Of a stretch of DNA of 64,000 bases, positions 42,481 to 58,353 are shown one piece after another. A program made the position numbers and the translations under genes. Origin of the DNA: Arenicola marina (lineage: Eukaryota; Annelida; Polychaeta; Arenicolidae); the NCBI GenBank assembly GCA_964019135.1, contig OZ025260.1, forward strand, positions 21,942,254 to 22,006,253. Direction: 5' to 3'. Every line of letters starts with the position of its first letter. Position 1 is the first letter of the stretch. Below the pieces are notes generated by a model. It had not been told where the DNA came from. It searched no databases and was given only the letters and a program-made list of their open reading frames with translations.

Positions 42481-45374
42481 CAATATTACTGACATCATGT
42501 GTGCCAAATACCATTCAAATTAGACCAGTGCTTTGCACGCAATAAACAACAACAAAACAATAACATGGCCGATCCCATTATAAAGCTTCGATACGCCAAA
42601 TGACTCCCGGCGCGCTGACATTTCGGCCTATACTCTGTCAGTAATGCATGTACATATTCGGCACTCGCTATATATATACCAGTTGCACTTATCCCCAGAT
42701 TTTCGTCTCCCTTCTCAAGCTACGCTTGACGTTCTCGTTTTTTTCTCATCCAGCTTGATCAATCCTCATTTATATTGACCCTTCTGAATTCTTGGCGATT
42801 CGGTCTTACTCTCCCTAATTCTAGAGGATTCATGATTCAGAGAGGATCACCCCCCCCCCCCCATATTAGCGAGGATTCTAAACACTTGTAAGACAATTTC
42901 GAAGCACAAAACCACTCTTTGGAGTTTTTTTTGGTTGGACTTGTTTTGTTTTTTGTTGGACATTTTTGTCCTGTTTGGCAAATGGCGTCATATGGCATTT
43001 CGGCGTAATAATCCCCGATTATGGTAGATACAGCAGTAAACACGTCCTTGACCTCGAACGTCATTGGCGGTCATTGATATGTTCATTTACGTGTACTTGG
43101 CACAAAGCCTTACATATGTCCATTATCGTCTGGCTCAGCAGATGGAAAGCCAGTTTGACCATGAATAGTAAAAGTGTAATGCCACTCTCTCCCTTCGACT
43201 CACTTCGCTAAGGCTCCATTATATCTATGTTGTCGTCTCTTTCCTCAAAGTATTTTCATACTCGATCGCCAGGGCGGCGCCGCGCAAATTGATAGGACAA
43301 GTGCGCTGTGCATTTCTAGAAATTAATTAACCCAGCCTATGCCTAATAACACAGAGTATCAGCTGATAAAAAAACAGATTTCACTCTCAATTAGAACTTT
43401 GTCAAAGTTGTACAAGATGTATTTTGCTGTCTCAAATACCCAGAGCTCGTTATTTTTATGTTTTATGCTTGAAATTTTTTATAATGTTGCAAGAAATTAA
43501 CGTTGGTGTGACCGTTTTTCAAGAATCTGGAAATTCGCCCCCGGCCAACAGCAGCCGTAAAAGCGGAGCTTGCGTAGCGCCACCGTGCGGGAGTTTGTTG
43601 TACTGCGCTTGGAAATGTGTACAGTGTTCTTATGTGTGTACGCTATGGGGATATTACATGTGTTTGCAGACACATTGTGCTTGTTTTTACATGCATTTAC
43701 AACTGTGTTAGGCGGCTCCAGTTGGAATTTAGCCATTCTATTTTCACTTTTACCACATATATAATTATTCGACAAATTAATGAAAGAAACCCCACCAAGG
43801 AAGCATTACTGCCATCAGAGCTCAATCATGCACTCACCAAGCTGGTTGGACCTTTAAACCAACAATATGCTTCTGAAACTACTCTCGGCCGTCCATCGTT
43901 ATGCGTGATCGTTCTTATCGCGATCATCATTAACTTAGGTCTCGCGAAACATTCCTTTTACAGACAAGTCGCCGTGAAAATATTGCTGTAGTGTATGTAA
44001 AGGACAAGGTTATTTATACCACGGATGGACGGGACTGCATAATTGTCGCTGTCTACAGGTAGTCAGGCCTTAAGCCTATCATTAAGCCGCTGAGCGAACA
44101 AATCTGGCACAGGTTGACGGAGACAACTCGACGCCACAGACGGTCTCACACCAGATTTGCTGGACTTTAGGCCAAATGTGCCGAGTGTCGTTCATGTCAT
44201 AATGACGGTGTAATAATCCCTGCATACATGGACACCGTGCTCAGAACTGCGTGTGAGATAACAGTAAAATCTAGGCGGGGGTAAAACGATTAGTCTACCG
44301 GACAGTTTAATTAATTTGGCATCTGCTCAGATCTCGACCACGAACGTTCACCTCCGTTGGTCACAATCAGTACTGCGTCAGTCAGCACACGAGTGGGGGG
44401 GGGGGGGCATAGGCCGATGTCGTCAGTACTCTTAGTTCCTTAGATTTCCTTAGTCACACGCCTCTCTCCTTAGTGCTCTTCCATTTTTTCCGCTCAGGCA
44501 AAGACCGTGGTTGCGTGAGCTTTGTCAGGAGCTCGTGTCTGTGTGTTTTTATGTTGCGTTCGGCCTTTTGAGGTTTGATGTAGTGAAAGGAGGAAGCAGT
44601 ACGGCGATGTTGTCGCGTCGTTTTGTAAAACGTCTACAGGTTAAACGCGTCCACCTCCGTGACGAAACCGATAGGGTTACCGAAGGAGAGCTTCTAATGC
44701 ACGGTGTCTAGTAATGACACGGCGGAATCACCAGGCAGGTGGTCAGGCCGTGTCGGCACCACGAACGGCTCGCCGGGCCCGCTAAACCTTTAAGGCAGTT
44801 TTAGCATGTTTTGTCGTTGAGTCTGTAAAACAACAATTTCAACATCAAACTGCGCGGACGTGTTTATCGCGCGCGGACGTCCTAGCGAGCCGCGGTCGAC
44901 ATCACACAGAATACCAAACATCAAGAAGAGATTGGTAATATACAAATTTTTTTTTTAGCCCGAGCGGGGAGACTTCGGAAAGGTGACTGTGCGTGAGGTC
45001 GGTCGGGTAGGTTGGAGGTGTGAAGGTAGCGGACTGTAGATGCGGCGCCAGAGAAGATCAAGCGAGGTTCAGTGTGGGGCTTGAGTCCAGTAGTAGGTAC
45101 ATGTATTTCTGTGACATCCAATGCAATTAGGCTATTATCCATATACTCGCACTGTTTGTACCATGCATGACCTCTGAAATATAGTACATCAAAAAAACAA
45201 AGGACTCTAAAGGCGGAAGGCATGATTAATTATATCGGGGTGTATCCTTCATCATTAACTGTTGCCAATGGCTTATCATGGGAAAGGTATGGAACTCTTC
45301 TAACCTGAGCATGATATAAAGACATTGGCATTGAGCGCGAGACGAGTGGGCCATATCGTTGTACCAAAGGTAAG

Positions 45375-45690
45375 TGGGGGGGAGGGTGAAGCGGGATGAG
45401 GGGAGGGTAAGTAGGCGAGGTGGGGTGAGGGGTAAGTAAGGGGGCGAGGTGGGGTGAGGGTATGGTTAGGTGGCAAAACAGGGTGAGGAGAGGAGGGTGA
45501 GTAGGCGAGGTGGGGTGAGGGGTAAGTCAGGGGGCGAGGTGGGGTGAGGGGTAAGTAAGGGGGCGAGGTGGGGTGAGGGGTAAGTAAGAGGGCGAGGTGG
45601 GGCGAGGGTATGGTTAGGTGGCAAAACAGGGTGAGGAGGGGAGGGTAAGGGACGAGTCAGGAGAGTGGGGTGGGGTGAGGGAAGAATATA
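45375..45690. repeat. G-rich minisatellite just upstream of the receptor gene
   Basis: About ten irregular units of roughly 28-32 bp built on ggcgaggtggggtgaggggt and aagtaaggg. It ends about 170 bp before the TATA-like box at 45859. Confidence 0.8.
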
Positions 45691-45897: not shown

Positions 45898-45962
45898 ATG
45901 GCAGGGTATTGGCTGATTCTGGCTGTGGCCGGATGGGCAGCGGCCGTTGACTCCGCAGAGAC
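45898..45962 (+). CDS. receptor exon 1: signal peptide
   Basis: ATG is followed by a hydrophobic leader ([15 protein letters not shown]). The gtacgt donor after GAGAC gives phase 2, which exon 2 completes. An alternative gtaaca donor 4 bp later would break the frame. Confidence 0.78.
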
Positions 45963-48900
45963 GTACGTAACATAAACTATACTTACACTGAAGTTACTTG
46001 ATATAACTGTACTTTGATGCTGGTACGCGTACACAGTATATGAACTAGCAGAGGAATTACTTCCTATTAAAGTCCATAATTCTCACCACACATTGCTCAC
46101 ATTTGTTTATGACACAATAGGGTGTCTTTTCACTAAGATATTTCGCAACTTTTGCTGGTAAAATATTGCCATTTTATTGGCATTTTGAAGAAAAATGCTA
46201 CATGTTAAATTTATCATATTATATGGCAAACAGGTTCTCGCATAGTATCACCTGAAAATGATTTGCACGAATATGGCTGCACCTCAATACTCGCAGTATA
46301 ACGCTTATACATTTTCGTTGCTTGTAAATTACGATCTATATCTTTAACTCAACAAGGAATAAATCCGGTTATGAGCCCTTAACTCTTACTGAACGATACC
46401 TAGAGCATGTATTTTGTGCAAGTAAATGCCTAACTTTGTACATGTGAGGTACTGGTGCAAGTAAATGCCTAACCTTGTACATGTTAGGTACCGGTGCAGG
46501 TTGCATTGACAATGTTATGAACGGTACGATGTCGTGACAGGAAGCAGGGTGGCAATGATACAATGGCGGGACTGGTGGAGCGACTGTTCCATCCGGCAAG
46601 GTACAAGAGATATGTTCGACCAGGAACTGACGAAGGTGAGTGATACATGTTAAGTGACCATACGCATCATGTTTTTAAGATTAATTTATTGAACCAAACG
46701 GGCGATTATTAACTAAGCATGTGCGATGAATACGAGACTAGGGGTCAGGGAGATACGCCCCAATCACTGGAGCGGTAACCCGCCGCTCCACACTCCGAGC
46801 TAAGCCCCACCCTCGCTTGAGTGTTCTTGAGTCCTTGTCCTTGAGTGTCCTTTTTCGTTAATTTGTCAGTATCTGATGTATCAGTGCCATGAGACCCCAA
46901 TAGGTGGCAGCAATTCACTCATCGAGAACCCGAGGCGCGCCGGTGTTGTGACACATGTCTCCATGAGACCCCAATAGGTGGTAGCACTCCAGGCGGGCCG
47001 GTGTTGTGACACATGTTTGCTTTCGTCTGACGAGTGATTTGATCCTGATTTGATTTGATCCTGATTTGATGTGTATATTATGATATATTGACCATGTGGA
47101 TGCCTGGTACTTCCCCCAGCCAGCCTTGCAGTCTGGGCTAAGCGTTATTCTCTATATAACCTTATGAGAAGATATCTGCACTATGTATTGATTCGTTGTT
47201 TCGGTTATTGGTCGCTTCAGATAGCATGCCAATAGGCTGTGGTTTAATATTTCATGTTCCACCTTCTAACGGTAAATGCCTGAAAGGGAAGTAATGCCTG
47301 GGAGAATTATTTAAGGGGTAATATCTGGCATAGCCTAATAAGTGCGCCATATATAATGTATGTTGGCAACCGCCAATGAAATTACCACTTGAACAAAGTA
47401 TGACGTGTATATCAATCATCAGCAGCAGGGCGTTACCACATGAACTGGGGTCCGATTCGTTAGTCCGCATCCGAGCCAACCTTATATCTTTCTGTCACGG
47501 GGACGCGATTCTATATCCCAATCTTCATTCGAATCGTCCGCCCTTGCCCGATACTGCCGCGAACAAGACTAGGGTCTACAGCTTAGCAACCACGCCCATG
47601 GTCGATACAGTGATGAAGCTTGTAGAACTAAGAGGACACATGCCATAATATGTTATTTGGCATGGGCCTCTGAACCGCAAATCCCCTGAAGAATTAGGCA
47701 AACAGTCACTGACACATTACTCAGATAGCCAGGACATGATGGCCTCCACCCACTGCTGCTTAATAATATCGAATCTCCAAGATGAGGACTGCCCAAGTCT
47801 GGGCGCGCAAACAAACACCTTAAAGGCGATATCGCGAATATCGAGGAATTTACAGATTGCTATTATAAATAGGCAAAGGGTCTTCGCGTTGAATCGGGAA
47901 TTGCACGAATACTGAGCCCCAAAAATTGCCCACAGCCAGTCGGGCGAATCTCCAGATCGAAAAAGATATTCCCTCCCCTCAACATCGAGGGTGGTATGCG
48001 TGGGCTGTCATAAAACAAATGAAACACAATTCCCAATTCGCCTGGACTATATCGTGGATTTCCTGCTGGGCTAGGTGCCCTGGTTTGAGTTGTACTTAAA
48101 CACGCAATTTCCCTTGCCGTAAGTCAACATTTTCATGTTATGTTTTCACACAGTTTTCACTGCCGCAAGTCGAAGGCATGTCCATAATAATGGAGATAAG
48201 GACTCGAAAACATACATTAAGTGTCTTTCTGTTGAAGAATACGACATTTTGAAAGTTATGATTCCTAATGTGGGATATTTTCATCGATGAATCTACGTAA
48301 CTGTTGCATATGCATGAATGCGGGTGAAATGTTCTATTTTCAGGGCGACCCATAACGGTGTATGTGGATATGTTTATTAATAGCATTAGTTCCATCAACG
48401 AGCAGTCCATGGTAAGTAATCGGTCCCCCTCCCCTCCCCCCAGTCACGTGCTATGGATACCCATACCGTCATAATTACCAGATAAGTCGGCAAAATATTG
48501 CGCCAGACAGCGATGCCCATCAATAGAATCATCAATCAATACTTTAGGCTTGTTGCGTATTTTGATTTTCAATATTAATACACATTCGGCCTTCGAGCAC
48601 AAAGGGCTTGAAGGACAAACTGGCTGGGTTGGCATATAGAATGAAGCTGTAAAGCCACGAAAGCATCATCAAAATTGCATCTTAACTGGAAAGACGTTTG
48701 TTACGTATTGTTTGTAGCCATGATGGCAAGGGTCAAGGTCGAAGGGGTGGCGGGAGTGGGGCGTGGGGGGGGGGGGCAAAAAGCAACTTTGATCTAGGAA
48801 ACATCCATTGAGGTATGTATTGTTCAACACTGAAAAAAACCCACATTACATTGATCCATTACTTATTTATCCTAAGTAGCTCGATGGTTGACATCAGTCG

Positions 48901-51900
48901 CACTTTCGAATTTCGCATATTGAAATTAAGGCCTAAATTATGAATTAGCCGCAGGAGCTTGCCGAGCTCAGTAATCGGGCTGAGCTGCAGATCAACAGGT
49001 CGTGGGTTCGCGCTCTGGCACTTGAATCTACGGCACCTTGTAGTTATAGTAGTAATTGATTCGGTACTAGACGAAACAAAAACAAATCAAACGGACCCTT
49101 CAAATGTATGCCAATTATAACCTACTAAATAAATCTATGCGATGTTCATCTAACCGATTTAAATTGCCAGATTTCTAGTTTAGCTTGTATTTGCACAAAA
49201 GTGGCCTAAAACGCCCACATTTCATTGCCCGACAGGACTACACAATGACCCTGTATCTCCGCCAACGATGGAAGGACGAGAGGCTGGCATTTACTGAGTT
49301 CCCGGACCGAGATTACGTACCCTTGAACTATGACCTTTTTGATCGCCTTTGGGTCCCTGACCTGAATATTAAGAACCAGAAGGATGGTCATTTTCGGGAT
49401 ATAACAGTGCCTAACCGGCTGTTGTACCTCTACCACGATGGTATGATCTACTACAGTCAGGGGTAAGTACAGCTCTGTGCCTCTACCACGATGGTCTGGT
49501 TTACTACAGTCAGGGGTACGTACAGCTCTGTGCCTCTACCACGATGGTCTGGTCTACTACAGTATAGCTCTGTACCTCTACCATGATGGTCTGGTCTACT
49601 ACAATCAGGGGTAAGTACAGCTCTTTACCTCTACCACGATGGTCTGGTCTACTACCGTCAGGCGTAAGTACTGCTCTGTGCCTCTACCACGATGGTCTGG
49701 TCTACTACAGTCAGGGGTAAGTACTGCTCTGTGCCTCTACCACGATGGTCTGGTCTACTACAATCAGGGGTAAGTACAGCTCTGTACCTCTACCTCGATG
49801 GTCTGGTCTACTACAGTCAGGGGTAAGTACTGCTCTTTACCTCTACCACGATGGTCTGGTCTACTACAGTCAGGGGTAAGTACAGCTCTTTACCTCTACC
49901 ACGATGGTCTGGTCTACTACCGTCAGGGGTAAGTACTGCTCTGTGCCTCTACCACGATGGTCTGGTCTACTACAGTCAGGGGTAAGTACTGCTCTGTGCC
50001 TCTACCACGATGGTCTGGTCTACTACAGTCAGGGGTAAGTACAGCTCTGTACCTCTACCTCGATGGTCTGGTCTACTACAGTCAGGGGTAAGTACTGCTC
50101 TTTACCTCTACCACGATGGTCTGGTCTACTACAGTCAGGGGTAAGTACAGCTCTGTACCTCTACCTCGATGGTCTGGTCTACTACCGTCAGGGGTAAGTA
50201 CTGCTCTGTGCCTCTACCACGATGGTCTGGTCTACTACAGTCAGGGGTAAGTACTGCTCTGTGCCTCTACCTCGATGGTCTGGTCTACTACAGTCAGGGG
50301 TAAGTACTGCTCTTTGCCTCTACCACGATGGTCTGGTCTACTACACTCGGGGGTAAGTACAGCTCTTTACCTCTACCAATGGTCTGATCCACTACAGTCA
50401 GGGGTAAGTACAGCTCTGTGCCTCTACCACGATGGTCTGGTCTACTACAGTCAGGGGTAAGTACAGCTCTTTGCCTCTACCACGATGGTCTGGTCTACTA
50501 CACTCGGGGGTAAGTACAGCTCTTTACCTCTACCAATGGTCTGATCCACTACAGTCAAGGGTAAGTACCGCTCTGTGTCTCTACCACGATGGTCTGATCC
50601 ACTACAGTCACGTTTATGCACTTATATGAAGAACGGCAGACCGATCCACACTCCGACACTAAACCCCGCCCCCGCCTTTTTCCTTAATCGTGAGTATGAA
50701 ATTGACGATCATAGCGGATCGCAGGTAAAAGTGAGAAGTACAGACCTCTGAAACTGACAACAAAGTGACATGCGGCTTTGCTTGTCCGACTTGTTTGTCC
50801 GACATAACGCACGTGGAAGACCTTTTTTACCACATGATTCGATAAAAGAAACGTCATTGAATGATTGACAGCCTAGAGCTCTCTATTACGAATGGGAGTC
50901 CATCAACCATTGAACATGTCCTAGTCTGCGGCTGGCAGTGCTAAGCAGGTCACCGCTGAATACTTAAAAAATGCTGATCCTACGTCATATGCGGCAAGAA
51001 CATCCCTTTGTTATATATGCCAAGTCGCTGTGCCCAGCCAATTCATTCCCCAGTGGTCACCCAGCTGCCCATCAATGCCGGCTTCCGGCCTCCGTGAGCA
51101 TGGTAACAACACGTGGCCGACACTTGATGTCTGGGCTGTGAATTATAGAGATGGGCGTGGGTGTTTACTGTCACCTGTATCAACGTGTGACTCGACGGAT
51201 GGGAAACTAACTAGCGTTCTGTCGTGTGCGTAACGAATATAACACCGGACGTGTTCATGGGGTGGCAGATGGGGGAAGGCCCCTTTTGTATGGGGCAATA
51301 AGGTATATCTGCCCCCCCCCCCTTTAAATTATGCGCGCCCTGGACCGGCATCATCTTATATATTATAATTGATTAAGCGTCGTAGATTATGTTTTCTTTA
51401 TTTATCTTACTAGAGATTATAAAGTGTGCAAATCATGCTTAACTTGCACCTCTATCACCTACGCCTCGGGTTTTTACTCCTAGTTATTCCGTGTTTTTGT
51501 GGAACAATTTATTGTGTGCCGCCCCCCCCCCCCCCCACTTCAAGAATTCCTGCACACAGCCCTTTGTATCAGTTCACTCCGCAATATGTTGGTGTGTGTG
51601 ATGCTGTGTGCAATGTTTCTACATTATCACTTTCTACATTGTCAATTTTCCCCAGTTTCAAAATTTTTACGTTTCTAGTTTCGCCTTCATGAATTTTCAT
51701 CCTTATAAATTTCCACTTTTTAAAATTACCACGATGACAAATTTCCACTTTCATAAATTTTTAAATTTCTAAATTTCTAAACTGCATAACTTTTCAATCT
51801 TCCAATATTCTGAAATGTTGACTATAGTGTATCAACGGAATCGCCGCCCCACATCGGAGCAGAAGTAGTTATGATCGGCACTGCTGTCCAAGACGAGCCT

Positions 51901-54900
51901 TTCTCACGTCGACAGCAATACACGTCTATGACATCAGCTTGTAATAACATCCTGACAATAAATGTCGATAAATAGACACGGACAGATAATAACTCAAAGA
52001 AGGCGGCCCTTTTCATCTTTTTAAAACTGGTATAATCTCAGTTAATCCCATATTGGAGACTTCATGGTGAGAACATGATGAACAAAAAATATATGTGGTG
52101 GACTTTCGCGCGTCCCCTCGGCAAGGTCCGTGGCATTATTAATGCAATAAAGTCAACAAAATGGCGTCAAAGGCCTCTCGCCTCGGTCTTCAGTCGCTCG
52201 TGTGACGATCTGTTTTAATGTTGCCGGGCAAACACGGGGCACTGTATGCCACGTCCCCACTCCTTTTGAAAAGCCTGCCTGGCGATAAATTAATAATTCA
52301 ATGCGATCTCGTGTCACTTCTGGATGTATTATTAAGGCGTTGTATGTGTTCCCTGGACGTGGTTTACAGGCTGGTGCTCAAGTTGGAGTGCATGATGAAC
52401 CTGGAGAAGTTCCCGATGGACAACCAGTCGTGCCAACTACGCTTCGGCAGCTGTGAGTATACTAATGTCAATCACGTGGTCCATTGTCACATACACGGGT
52501 AACTAGTGAGTAGTGGGGGCAATGCCCCGTGTGGGCCCATCACCAGTGTGGACCCATCACCATTGTGGACCCATCACCAGTGTGTACCCATCACCCGTGT
52601 GGACCCATCACCGGTGTAGACCCATCGCCAGTGTGGACCTATCACCGGTGTAGACCCATCACCAGTATGGACCCATCACCAGTGTGGACCCATCACCAGT
52701 GTGGACCCATCACCGGTGTAGGCCCATCACCAGTGTGGACCCATCACCAGTGTGGACCCATCACCAGTGTGGATAAATCGATCAATTATCACCCTCCACG
52801 CGACGCAACTTTGACCTAATGGCTGTTCAATTGCAAATGCATTAGTCTGAATAAAATCTAACATCAAATATGATAAAACATGAAGACACTACTTTACCAA
52901 ATAGGTGACTGCATCGCTTGCTCTGATAAATAATGGTGCCGTTCCAGGCTGCAACAGAATCACACTACCTGTGTAAAATCCACTGGTGACGTCACTCTAT
53001 TGTTCTCTCACGACATTAGCTTTCTGTAATGTAGTGTGTTAGTCATAATGACGTGGATTTTTAGGAGAAGTTGACGACCTGGGTAAACTTAATGTCCAAG
53101 GAACACGACACGAGTCCGCGTGAGAAGCCCGATGACCCATTGTTATCCGGTAAGCGACAATACCGGATAACAATGGGTCATCGTGTCGTGTTCATTGGAC
53201 ATTAACTTATTACATTACATATATTCATCGTTGAATTGTGCCCGTAGCTACACTGGGATATCCCTCTGATCATCAAATCGGTCATATAGACGCCCTAACA
53301 TTATAGGCGTAAATCCACGAAAACACATTAATAAGAGATTAAATCTATTAAGCACATGGCATTAGAAGGCCTCCATCTGTATCCAGAAACTGAGTCAAAG
53401 ACAAGTCTGGGATGGATCCAGGAACGTTAGATATTGATATTATACTGCTTTATATTTTGATATATCATACTGTATTTTATATTGATATATCATACTGTAT
53501 TTTATATTGATATATTATACTGTATTTTATATTGATATGTTATACTATATTTTATATTGATATATCATACTGCATTATATATTGTTCTACATTATATATT
53601 GATATATTGTCTTACATTATATATTGATATATTGTCTTACATTATATATTGATATATCATACTACATTATATATTGATATATTACACTGCATTATATGTT
53701 GAGATATTATACTGCTTGATATATTGATGTATTATACTGTATTGATATATTATACTGCATTATATATTATGCTACATTATATATTGATATATTGCCTTAC
53801 ATTATATATTGCTATATTATACTACATTATATAATAATATATTATACTACATTATATATTAATATATTATACTACATTATATGTTGATATATTATACTAC
53901 ATTATATATTAATATATTATACTACATTATATGTTGATATATTACACTACATTATATATTAATATACTATACTACATTATATAATAATATATTATACTAC
54001 ATTATATATTGATATATTACACTACATTGTATATTGATATATTATACTACATTATATATTGATATATTATACTACATTATATATTGTTCTACATTATATA
54101 TTGATATATTGCCTTACATTATATAATGATATATTATACTTCATTATATGTTGATATATTACACTGCATTATATATTGATATATTATACTACATTATATA
54201 TTGATATATTATACTGCATTAAATATTGTTCTACATTATATATTGATATATTGGCTTACATTATATATTGCTATATTATACTTCATTATATATTAATATA
54301 TTATACTACATTATATATTGATATATTACACTACATTATATGTTGATATGTTATACTACATTATATATTGAAATACTGCATTATATATGGGTACATTATA
54401 CAACAGTACATAGTTATATATTATGCGACCTAATAACTTACGCGTTACACGGTGATTAAACTCTCTCTTCCCAGACGGTTATACCACCAACGACATCATA
54501 GTCGAGTGGCGGAACATATCGGAACCCGTTCAGGTTTCCGAGGACCTCCTTCTCCCAGAGTTCGACTACCAGTCATCTGGTTACGGCGACTGCACATCGC
54601 ATTTTATAACAGGTAACGTCACCCGTGCTTCGCTTACAATGGCGTGAACGTCATGCCGTGCGAAGGGTAGGAGTCAGCGAGCAGGGGCCGTATTCATAAT
54701 CCACTCGTAAGTTACGCGCAGAAAGTGCATTTTCGTCTTAGCCATTGTGGTGATGCTCATGATTAAGAAATCCTCTTAAATATAATCTTACCACTTTCTT
54801 AATTCAGAAAATATACTCTTGGGGTGACTACTTATGTATTTTGAACCCGATAATCGCTCGACAAATCTTCCACTTATCTACTCGCGTAGCCTATGTGGCG

Positions 54901-57900
54901 ATTATGAATACGGCCCCTGGCCCCTTGCCAGGTAGGATTTTCCGTTTTGCATTGCCTCTTCATATATGGCGCAAACATAAATATTTGCACAGGTGGGATT
55001 CGAACCAACCCAATGGCCATTGTGCAGAGGACAGCCAACAAGAATACAACCTGTTGTGTCTTTTTGCTCGATACACTGTTTTACCAACTGTTTTGATTAT
55101 TGGTTCCCATCCGTCCCTCTACGGGGAGACGATGGATTTCGTGGCTTACTTTGCTGTAATTTAAGTATTCATATTGGTCGTGCGACATCCTGCATACGAC
55201 CAACGTTCGATAAATAACACAATGTTAATAGATTTGCGTTGGTTATCATATCAGCAGGTAGTATTCTTCCAAATTATTGCCTAAAATATTACGCAGAAAA
55301 CTTCGTATATTTCCTTGGTAACTGAATTTGCTGACCACTTCTTTAGATATACACTTTAGAATAATCACTGACGGCGTCTATTGCCTCACTATCTATAGTG
55401 TTAAGAGCAAAGAATGAACATACGTTAGTCAGCAAGCGAGGTCTCTTCATGCCCAACTATGATCGTGCCATCTTTTTGAATTGCTGGAGTTAACATTGTA
55501 ACCATGATCGGGCCATCTTTTTGACTTGCTGGAGTTAACATTGTAACCATGATCGGGCCATCTTTTTGACTTGCTGGAGTTAACATTGTAACCTTGATCG
55601 TGCCATCTTTTTGACTTGCTGGAGTTAACATTGTAACCATGATCGTGCAATCTCTTTGATGTACTGGAATTAACTTTGTAACCATGATCGTGTCATCTTT
55701 TTTACTTGCTGGAGTTAACATTGTAACCATGATCGTGCCATCGTTTTGACTTGCTGGAATAAACATTGTAACCTTGATCGTGCCATTTTTTTGACTTGCT
55801 GGAGTTAACATTGGAACCTTGATCGTGCAATCTCTTTGATGTACCGGAGTTAACATTTTAACCATGATCGTGCCATCTCTTTGACTTGCTGGAGTTAACA
55901 TTGTAACCTGATCGTGCCATCTTTTTGACTTGCTGGAGTTAACATTGTAACCTTGATCGTGCCATCTTTTTGACTTGCTGGAGTTAACATTGTAACCTTG
56001 ATCGTGCCATCTTTTTGACTTGCTGGAGTTAACATTATAACCATGATCGTGCAATCTCTTTGATGTACTGGAGTTAACTTTGTAACCATGATCGTGCCAT
56101 CTTTTTTACTTGCTGGAGTTAACATTGTAACCATGATCGTGCCCTCGTTTTGACTTGCTGGAATAAACATTGTAACCTTGATCGTGCCATTTTTTTGACT
56201 TGCTGGAGTTAACATTGGAACCTTGATCGTGCCATTTTTTTGAATTGCTGGAGTTAACATTGAAACCTTGATCGTACAATCTCTTTGATGTACCGGAGTT
56301 AACATTGTAACCATGATCGTGCCATGTTTTTGAATTGCTGGAGTTAACATTGTAACCATGATCGGGCCATCTTTTTGAATTGCTGGAGGTAACATTGTAA
56401 ACATGATCGGACCATCTTTTTGAATTGCTGGAGTTAACATTGTAACCATGATCGTGCCATCTTTTTGACTTGCTGGAGCTAACATTGTAACCTTGATCTT
56501 GCCATCTTTTTGACTTGTGGAGTTAACATTGTAACCATGATCGTGCCATTTTTTTGACTTGCTGGAGTTAACATTATAACCATGATCGTGCAATCTCTTT
56601 GATGTACTGGAGTTAACTTTGTAACCATGATCGTGCCATCTTTTTTACTTGCTGGAGTTAACATTGTAACCATGATCGGGCCATCTTTTTTACTTGCTGG
56701 AGTTAACATTGTAACCATGATCGTGCCATCTTTTTGACTTGCTAGAGTTAACATTGTAACCACGATCGTGCCATCTTTTTAACTTGCTGGAGCTAACATT
56801 GTAACCTTGATCCTGCCATGTTTTTGACTTGCTGGAGTTAACATTGTAACCATGATCATGCCATCTTTTCGACTTGCTGGAGTTCACATTGTAACCTTGA
56901 TCGTGCCATCTTTTTGATTTGCTGGAGTTAACATTGTACCCATGATCGTGCAATCTCTTTGATGTACTGGAGTTAACATTGCAATAATGATCGTGCCATC
57001 TTTTTGACTTGCTGGAGTTAACATTGTAACCATGATCGTGCCATCGTTTTCACTTGCTGGAGTTAATATTGTAACATTGTGCAGTAGATAAAACCGGTAT
57101 CAACAAGAGAATTATCCGCTTTATTCTTCCTTCCCCAGGCACATTTTCCTGTCGCTACGCCGTCCTACACTTCACGCGCAAGTTCAACTACTACCTGATC
57201 CAGACATTCGTTCCCAGCATGCTCATCGTCATCCTCTCGTGGGTGTCCTTCTGGATCGACATCGAAGCCGTGCCCGCCAGAGTGACGCTGGGACTGCTCA
57301 CCGTACTCACCATGACAACGCAGTCGTCCGGAGTGATCCAGAGACTGCCCCGGGTGTCCTACATCAAGGCCATCGACGTCTGGATGACGGCCTGCCTGGT
57401 GTTCGTCTTCGGCGCCCTGGTGGAGTACTGCATCGTCAACGTGCTGGCCCGCAGGGACAAGGAGCGGCGAGAGGCCAGGGAGGAGCGGGAGAAGATGATG
57501 CAGCTGCAACCCTTTATGCTGGCCAACGCCATCTCGCACATGGCCGAGAGCGCATTGCAGCAGCGCAACGGGGCCAAGAAGGTGAGGAAACTGCGCTTAA
57601 TATAAGGCCTCAGGTTAAGGTTTAGCATTGGAAGGGGTCTGGAAGGAAGGTTCCAGTTTCTAGCGTCGATTTTTCTAAATTCGCAGTGCCGAATGGCTAT
57701 TTTTTACGACGCTACCTGTCAAAGTTCACTGCCGATTTTGTCAAAAATCTGTGTCAATGTCGCTTTTTCATTGTCGGAATTTGAGGGTCAATGTCGAAGG
57801 TCGATTTTTTTAATATGTCTATGTCGCGTGTCGCCATTTACCCCTTTTAGACCCCTATTGGAATTAACGCCGCCTAGTCAAGTGTTTAAACCTTAGACTA

Positions 57901-58353
57901 GATGATGAATAGTGCTAGTGAGTGGCGGGGGGGGGGGGGGGGCGGTACTAAATGGCTCCATTGGAGCCCTCCGAGCCATTCTGGCTGACTAATTATTTTT
58001 AATGAATTATTATCAAAATCTCTCCATATGATCTGACTATGTATGTTATGAAACTAGCATCCTATTGTCGCCCTCTTTGTTCCTAGCCCGGCGACAGCGG
58101 CGCAGTGGGTGCCGGGAAGGATTCCCCGGCGGACCTCCTGGGGCGATTGAGCGCCACCGGCGGCACCACCGGCGGCACCACAGGTATCACCGGCACCACT
58201 GCCACTATGCACTCTGGCAAAAGGAAGCCGTGGTGGGTGGAGGTGAGGGAGAGCAGTGCTCTGCTGGTGGAAATCTTCTCCAGAATCTTCTTCCCGGCCA
58301 TGTTTCTCCTGTTCAACCTCTTCTACTGGGTCTACTATCTCTTCATGTCCTGA
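45898..58353 (+). CDS. glycine-receptor-like Cys-loop ligand-gated anion channel subunit (8 exons, 461 aa)
   Basis: Exons 45898-45962, 46541-46635, 48344-48411, 49236-49462, 52370-52452, 54475-54612, 57139-57581 and 58087-58353 join in frame. The product has a signal peptide (1 to about 20), an extracellular ligand-binding domain, and the Cys-loop between C159 and C173. A second loop-C disulfide (C219-C230) is typical of glycine receptors. M1 is about 243-265, M2 about 271-288 after the anion-selective PAR motif (271-273), and M3 about 306-327. A charged, then Gly/Thr-rich cytoplasmic loop leads to M4 at the extreme C-terminus (about 438-461). Possible N-glycosylation sites are N27 and N193. 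It should form pentameric chloride channels at the plasma membrane. Arg85 (loop D), Thr225 and Phe228 (loop C) match glycine-site residues, but the usual loop-B Glu is Gly178, so the ligand is uncertain. Confidence 0.95.
46541..46635 (+). CDS. receptor exon 2: N-terminal helix region
   Basis: The acceptor is gtcgtgacag and the donor gtgagt, and 95 bp take phase 2 to phase 1. It encodes [18 protein letters not shown], the amphipathic helix preceding the first strand in Cys-loop receptors, and an NDT glycosylation sequon. Confidence 0.8.
46888..47016. repeat. two-copy direct duplication in receptor intron 2
   Basis: catgagaccccaataggtgg...ccggtgttgtgacacatgt occurs at 46888-46959 and, with an internal deletion, at 46962-47016. 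Confidence 0.85.
48344..48411 (+). CDS. receptor exon 3: first beta strands
   Basis: The 68-bp exon has acceptor ctattttcag and donor gtaagt. It encodes [20 protein letters not shown], the family's VxVxxxINSxxSIxExxM strand pattern. It ends exactly before the DYTM start of exon 4, a conserved junction. Confidence 0.93.
48962..49030 (+). mobile_element. tRNA-like SINE head in receptor intron 3
   Basis: An A-box-like gagctcagtaatcgggctg and a B-box-like ggttcgcgctc are spaced as in a tRNA, but the cloverleaf is poor. Probably a degraded SINE. Confidence 0.4.
49173..49222 (+). mobile_element. SINE family B 3' tail abutting receptor exon 4
   Basis: tttagcttgtatttgcacaa followed by aagtggcctaaaac is nearly identical to the 3' tail of the SINE at 19301-19488 (which is on the minus strand there). 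It ends about 13 bp before the exon 4 acceptor at 49235. Confidence 0.75.
49236..49462 (+). CDS. receptor exon 4: ligand-binding core
   Basis: The 227-bp exon encodes [17 protein letters not shown] (loop D with R85), [14 protein letters not shown] (loop A region) and ends at [12 protein letters not shown]. The donor is gtaagt directly after CAGGG. The last roughly 36 bp, plus the start of intron 4, are the progenitor-like first unit of the downstream 53-bp array. If this donor is skipped, the next codon is an in-frame TAA. Confidence 0.95.
49428..50620 (+). repeat. 53-bp minisatellite derived from exon 4 end plus its splice donor, about 22 copies
   Basis: The unit is ctctaccacgatggtctggt, ctactacagtcaggggtaag, tacagctctgtgc. 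The first unit is the real 3' end of exon 4. Most later units keep a consensus donor (ggggtaagta). Intronic units share changes absent from the exon (ctggtc instead of atgatc), so they have been homogenised among themselves. Some copies have lost part of the unit (near 49560 and 50370). Confidence 0.95.
50621..52369. other. rest of receptor intron 4
   Basis: Unique sequence with a C run near 51525 and an AT-rich segment with recurring aaatttc motifs at 51660-51780. No further exon recognised. Confidence 0.5.
52370..52452 (+). CDS. receptor exon 5: Cys-loop
   Basis: The 83-bp exon has acceptor gtggtttacag and donor gtgagt. It encodes [19 protein letters not shown] and the closing SC, with 13 residues between the two Cys and the diagnostic FPMD. 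Confidence 0.96.
52520..52772. repeat. 17-bp minisatellite in receptor intron 5, about 15 copies
   Basis: The unit is gtgtggacccatcacca, with ccagtg/ccggtg variants. It starts about 70 bp after the exon 5 donor. Confidence 0.92.
53084..53208. repeat. long inverted repeat (hairpin) in receptor intron 5
   Basis: A perfect 22-bp inverted repeat (53131-53152 and 53161-53182) encloses an 8-base loop. Outside it a second arm pair, about 28 bp with few mismatches (53084-53112 and 53183-53208), includes aatgtcca and gaacacgacac. About 18 unpaired bases (53113-53130) sit on the left side only. Confidence 0.9.
53448..54420. repeat. AT-rich satellite-like array in receptor intron 5
   Basis: Irregular units of about 25 bp, ttatatattgatatattata followed by ctaca, with shorter 17-bp variants ending gttctaca. 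The array stops about 55 bp before exon 6. Confidence 0.92.
54475..54612 (+). CDS. receptor exon 6: loops B and C
   Basis: The acceptor is ctctctcttcccag and the donor gtaacg. It completes [15 protein letters not shown] (loop B), includes an NIS glycosylation sequon and LLLPEFDY, and ends inside loop C after DCTSHFITG. Confidence 0.96.
54945..55035 (-). mobile_element. SINE family C head in receptor intron 6
   Basis: On the minus strand ggttcgaatcccacctgtgc followed by aaat is identical to the segment near 26.4 kb. The upstream part is a diverged tRNA-like region. Confidence 0.5.
55440..57085. repeat. 45-bp minisatellite in receptor intron 6, about 36 copies
   Basis: The unit is gatcgtgccatctttttgac, ttgctggagttaacattgta, accat. 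A variant unit containing gtgcaatctctttgatgta recurs near 55646, 55826, 56046, 56272, 56587 and 56946. Multi-unit blocks starting at 55646 and 56046 share the same variant order (offset about 400 bp). The array ends about 55 bp before exon 7. Confidence 0.95.
57139..57581 (+). CDS. receptor exon 7: loop C end, M1, M2, M3
   Basis: The 443-bp exon has acceptor ttccttccccag and donor gtgagg. It encodes the second loop-C Cys, M1 ([18 protein letters not shown]...), the PARV motif and M2 ending [24 protein letters not shown] leads into M3, and a highly charged cytoplasmic helix starting [14 protein letters not shown] follows. The pore 2' and 6' positions are Thr275 and Leu279. Confidence 0.97.
57582..58086. 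other. receptor intron 7
   Basis: Contains diverged gtcaatgtcgaaggtcgatt and gtcgcgtgtcgcca motifs (57660-57850) resembling the reverse complement of the segment at 39490-39720, and a G run at 57927. Confidence 0.55.
58087..58353 (+). CDS. receptor exon 8: cytoplasmic loop end and M4
   Basis: The exon follows acceptor tttgttcctag. It encodes a Gly/Thr-rich low-complexity segment ([16 protein letters not shown]), a basic KRKPWW motif, then M4 ([19 protein letters not shown]). The stop TGA is at 58351-58353, so the channel ends almost directly at the extracellular end of M4, as in the family. Confidence 0.95.
   Translation, partial: PGDSGAVGAGKDSPADLLGRLSATGGTTGGTTGITGTTATMHSGKRKPWWVEVRESSALLVEIFSRIFFPAMFLLFNLFYWVYYLFMS

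Follow-up and report, generated by a model that had tools for sequence, protein, structure and literature searches.

In amphioxus, minisatellite-like tandem repeats lying across exon-intron boundaries, at either end of an exon, have been described as mirages, in the genes Adh3, the globins BflGb6 and BflGb9, troponin C and PGBD5 (PMC3087553, PMC3902484). According to excerpts of these reports, many of the repeat units keep AG/GT, units at the array edges escape homogenisation and array length is unstable (PMC3087553, PMC3902484), and RT-PCR suggests that splicing is regular (PMC3087553). A related situation is found in human IFI6 (6-16, G1P3), where a minisatellite supplies several donor sites (Turri et al. 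1995, cited in PMC4526556) and downstream repeat units are said to act as donors, giving protein isoforms (PMC4526556). Duplication of an exon-intron boundary together with its splice signals is also the basis of the Rogers model of intron gain by tandem duplication, with a reported case in potato RdRp (PMC4974935). Among annelid genes, earthworm metallothionein is reported to contain intron minisatellites and exon-4 duplicates that are absent from the transcript (PMC12783039). In the literature that we found, mirages are described in amphioxus only, and work on mirages, on minisatellites with splice sites or donors, and on polychaete exon-intron boundaries contained no annelid exon-boundary array.

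We analyzed a 64,000-nucleotide stretch of the genome of the polychaete Arenicola marina (the window; genome size, 867 Mb), for which a sequence-only reading had proposed that the end of a receptor exon and its splice donor were amplified into an array of decoy 5' splice sites. Judged by the layout of its units, this array is a further case of amphioxus-type mirages.

The receptor gene and its 53-bp array

The gene at 45.9-58.4 kb of the window is a complete, intact anionic Cys-loop receptor gene whose open frame encodes both the ligand-binding and the transmembrane domain (Table 1). Both Pfam domains score above the cut-off (PF02931, 153.5 bits; PF02932, 129.7 bits), and the exon edges are those of a gene model. 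Exons 4-5 have glycine receptors as their best solved relatives. Three protein matches, P0001 (top), P0005 and P0023, come from the annelid Paralvinella palmiformis and include, besides the top match, the two highest listed identities; nematode and rotifer proteins follow by E-value. We take 49463 as very probably the authentic donor: with it, exons 4 and 5 are joined in the frame of the protein family, and P0023 reads through the junction in the same way. The SQG at the exon 4/5 junction, an unusual sequence, is shared by the receptor and P0023, and among the matches listed P0023 alone has Gly at the junction position.

Table 1. Positions of the receptor gene and its array, of a neighbouring receptor gene, and of kinesin exons with boundary arrays. 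Window positions are given unless another stretch is named; a slash within a donor sequence marks the exon end.
Feature	Position	Strand	Details
Receptor coding region (gene model)	45898..58353	+	8 coding exons, 461 aa, without internal stop
Coding exons 1-4 (gene model)	45898-45962, 46541-46635, 48344-48411, 49236-49462	+
Coding exons 5-8 (gene model)	52370-52452, 54475-54612, 57139-57581, 58087-58353	+	stop TGA
Receptor exon 4	49236..49462	+	227 nt, phase 2 end, ...TCAGGG; from gene model, PF02931 and tblastn with annelid relatives
Intron 4 (gene model)	49463..52369	+	phase 2; ends gtttacag, exon 5 from 52370
5' splice site, very probably authentic	49463..49469	+	GGG/GTAAGTA; P0023 reads YYSQGL across the junction
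53-bp minisatellite across the exon 4/intron 4 boundary	49423..50610	+	22.7 copies (TRF)
Unit 1	49423..49475	+	last 40 nt of exon 4 (49423-49462) and first 13 nt of intron 4 (49463-49475)
Units 2-5	49476..49676	+	donors damaged in 2, 3 and 5; unit 4 donor intact at 49611
Five-unit block	49624..50153	+	units 5-9 recurring as 10-14 with small differences; 265-bp higher-order duplication; shared variants
Two-unit block	50313..50573	+	units 18-19 recurring as 21-22 with small differences; shared variants
Unit 23, partial	50574..50610	+	array stops short of its donor
Divergent Cys-loop receptor gene	L003 5424-9270	-	its exon 4 about 24 kb downstream of receptor exon 4
Kinesin exon L029/L044	G000:C14		donor type, ~70-bp unit, 29 units matched, reaching the end of the stretch examined
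Kinesin exon L033/L045	G000:C20		donor type, ~92-bp unit, 33 units matched, 32 with donor
Kinesin exon L050	G000:C14:21551397-21552355		both ends amplified
Kinesin exon L036	G000:C17:1217039-1218185		acceptor-side boundary repeat, 61 bp, 2.3 copies

The array at the exon 4/intron 4 boundary proved to be real. TRF returned a single 53-bp array (90% matches, score 1879), and a wrap-around alignment arranged it in 23 rows, the last of them partial. The array spans the boundary as proposed, while the end previously set at 50620 is 10 bp too far. The earlier division of the unit into about 36 exonic and 17 intronic nt was nearly right; the alignment gives 40 and 13 nt. The seam of unit 1 is blurred by a short match of GCTGTTGTACC to GCTCTGTACC, noted by eye, so that its overlap can fairly be given as 40-44 exonic and 9-13 intronic nt. 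Two codons of unit 1 depart from the consensus (ATG ATC in unit 1, CTG GTC in the consensus unit). The composition of unit 1, the end of exon 4 followed by the start of intron 4, agrees with the suggestion that a coding exon edge seeded the array.

Variants that are missing from the array middle are carried by unit 1 and by units 18, 19 and 21-23. The shared variants of the recurring blocks and the divergent edge units are typical of unequal exchange that leaves the array edges unhomogenised. Given these signs of turnover, in particular the block duplications, the array likely varies in length. An extra decayed unit directly after 50610 was not supported (594 of 1000 shuffles were equally good), and a weak match at 50704-50755 was equalled by 41 of 1000 shuffles.

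The divergent Cys-loop receptor gene downstream has an intron of 354 nt that equals intron 4 in position and phase. No boundary array was found at the exon 4 end of this gene, and the sole repeat in the intron, a G-rich one of 51 bp, lies well inside it. Because this neighbour has an intron at the equal position and phase without a boundary array, intron 4 is older than the array, and the array as the origin of intron 4 was rejected.

Other repeats were observed in the receptor gene. Arrays occupy much of introns 5 and 6 (52529-52773, 53437-54424 and 55455-57075), with edges 76, 50 and 63 bp away from exons 5, 6 and 7. A 12-bp repeat (2.3 copies, 58154-58181) falls within the coding sequence of exon 8, where a Gly/Thr-rich stretch precedes the last membrane segment. 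Upstream of exon 1, a G-rich 29-bp array (45393-45671) contains three GGGGTAAGTAA sites, and a possible untranslated exon ends in AAG/GTAAGTGG at 45370.

Repeated donors and their predicted products

Most downstream copies keep the donor, as the sequence-only reading had stated. Seventeen of the 21 downstream donor positions, which lie between 49516 and 50561, are identical to GGG/GTAAGTA, and the remaining four consist of one AGG/GTAAGTA and three damaged sites (GTACGTA in unit 2, a deletion in unit 3 and GGC/GTAAGTA in unit 5). Computed energies of pairing with the U1 end were -11.7 kcal/mol for the authentic donor and the 17 identical ones, and -11.4 kcal/mol for AGG/GTAAGTA. The + strand of the window has 4481 GT sites; 23 of them reach the strength of the authentic donor, and 18 of these, the authentic one counted, lie within the array.

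Past the authentic junction, the reading frame continues as GGG TAA. Use of a later donor had been predicted to lead into TAA directly after this junction, and the prediction held for each of the 20 GT donors tested beyond the first (all but unit 3): every one gave the same 152-aa product, ending in ...YYSQG before TAA, and none gave a coding isoform. This product is without the Cys-loop and without any membrane segment. Its stop lies upstream of four exons, and transcript decay would therefore be expected, as it generally is for transcripts with a stop so placed.

We propose that splicing would occur mostly at the outermost donor, 49463, which is probably favoured by pairing with the exon 4 acceptor across a normal 227-nt exon; later donors would lengthen the exon to 280-1325 nt. 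On this model, some transcripts are likely mis-spliced into the stop-containing extension, without regulation, and would be removed by decay. When identical donors are duplicated in classic test substrates, the intron-proximal one tends to win, a preference that would predict a choice opposite to 49463.

Boundary arrays elsewhere in the genome

Minisatellites, counted as units of 10-100 bp, make up 31% of 180 kb taken as 18 arbitrary 10-kb stretches, and 34% of the window. Two of the arbitrary stretches (L010 and L012) are tandem repeat from end to end, with 68-bp and 31-bp units. In a rotation test within the window, 47% of placements put one or more array boundaries inside exons, and 98% covered one or more exon edges. 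A single overlap among the 8 exons is therefore unsurprising.

A sample of kinesin exons was drawn from elsewhere in the genome as the 38 best stop-free ones among 133 matches, each taken with 400-500 bp on either side; matches with stops were left out, and some of the sampled exons share a gene. Four of the 38 exons (Wilson interval, 4-24%), each at a separate locus (Table 1), had boundary arrays, which affected 5 of 76 edges; the other 34 sampled exons had none. In each case, the exon-adjoining copy can be read as the authentic site, with the array on the intron side. L029/L044 has mostly CAG/GTAGGGG donors, and 27 of the 28 positions after the first retain GT, which has been lost from one. 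Nearly all donors of L033/L045 read ACC/GTGAGTCA, with 31 further GT donors in the stretch examined. The two arrays of L050 consist of ~33-bp units upstream, on the acceptor side (12.8 copies, 74% matches), and of 61-bp units downstream, on the donor side (at least 7.4 copies, 99% matches). Across the stretches examined, the arrays of three kinesin exons hold 7, 28 and 32 GT donors, mostly alike within an array. A further candidate, L026, was dropped; its kinesin match overlaps an array, but the array ends about 10 nt short of the acceptor.

Splice sites are depleted of arrays, not enriched. Measured from profile-match edges in place of exact exon edges, array coverage around the kinesin matches was 8-10% within 25 bp versus 17-23% at 101-400 bp. 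Collectively, these findings suggest that mirages recur where minisatellites are abundant. It is a wider claim, and one that we consider unlikely, that donor or acceptor arrays sit at roughly one exon in ten, and that either the outermost of up to ~30 near-identical donors is reliably chosen or array-length-dependent failure gives many genes an additional, heritable layer of mis-splicing that evolves fast.

Origin of the array and comparison with known systems

The receptor array is most likely a mirage-type minisatellite, a tolerated by-product of chance duplication and unequal exchange. A chance tandem duplication would have captured the final ~40 nt of exon 4 together with the beginning of intron 4, and unequal exchange would have made the array grow into the intron. 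Expansion would have taken place on the intron side because copies there are spliced away. The exon-proximal copy would be held by selection on the protein, and the remaining copies would drift and be homogenised.

The sequence-only reading had instead raised a regulatory role, in which competing donors divert transcripts to the stop and to decay and copy number sets the receptor level; we regard this as quite unlikely. Such a role would fit the identity of 17 of the 21 later donors to the authentic one and the early stop, upstream of four exons, reached from all 20 tested donors. Block duplications that suggest a varying length would fit as well, and IFI6/6-16 is a human precedent for a minisatellite with donors in use (PMC4526556). 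However, the donor columns are not preferentially conserved, with 3 of 10 variable compared to 13 of 43 elsewhere (Fisher p = 1). Predicted RNA structure likewise gave no difference in accessibility between the consensus donor and shuffled units. The predicted chance of an unpaired donor was very low in all copies, and masking of the decoys by RNA was rejected, with 58% of 200 shuffled units as low or lower. Similar arrays occur at four unrelated kinesin loci (4 of the 38 sampled exons), and the amphioxus equivalents are reported without interference with regular splicing, which suggests that they are harmless to it (PMC3087553). Nothing in our analysis favours a possible role of the array in tuning receptor levels.

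Selection might instead disarm the nearest decoys, with distant ones harmless since the resulting exons would be over-long, an explanation that we find very unlikely. Of the four decoys closest to the exon, those of units 2, 3 and 5 are damaged (permutation p about 0.0015, for a pattern picked post hoc), and units 6-21 are intact; the damage may hint at selection against close decoys. However, unit 4 is intact at +148, and array edges diverge in any case. The nearest decoys are also kept in two other donor arrays of the genome, where the damage pattern was not repeated (p = 0.62 and 0.32; for L033/L045, the last of the 33 matched units, at the stretch end and without a donor, was dropped).

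It is highly improbable that the array is an intermediate in intron gain, with AG and GT repeats recruitable as new exons and introns. The authors of the amphioxus work proposed this route (PMC3087553), and the consensus unit carries CTACTACAG 6 nt ahead of the donor. However, intron 4 predates the array, as its counterpart in the L003 receptor gene is free of a boundary array, the implied exons (6 nt) and introns (47 nt) would be very small, and AG is missing from several units. An assembly artefact or a dead gene is extremely improbable even though tandem arrays are hard to assemble and the exon edges are modelled, given 8 open exons with both Pfam domains, private unit variants in coherent block order, and at least one match returned in the genome.

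Interpreted as a mirage-type minisatellite, the receptor array raises the sharp question of how splicing would select the outermost donor when 18 are identical. Such natural arrays would be ready-made tests of the choice between equal splice sites. If the outermost donor always wins, exon pairing or the order of synthesis would dominate donor choice; if it is not always chosen, array length would be a mutable dial.

Compared to the described systems, the receptor array differs from Rogers-model intron gain in that no new intron has arisen and the host intron predates the array. Earthworm metallothionein is likewise an annelid gene with a tandem-repeat intron, although the excerpts of that report describe no splice-boundary array (PMC12783039). 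As in IFI6, a minisatellite supplies donors, but the later receptor donors tested lead to a stop rather than to isoforms. The array is unlike the amphioxus mirages in its host, an annelid neurotransmitter receptor, and in its 53-bp units and 22.7 copies. It resembles them in a unit that holds exonic (40 nt) and intronic (13 nt) sequence, in copies that keep splice signals (17 of 21 donors identical, plus one AGG/GTAAGTA), and in concerted evolution that acts inside the array, in blocks 5-9/10-14 and 18-19/21-22, and excludes its edges.
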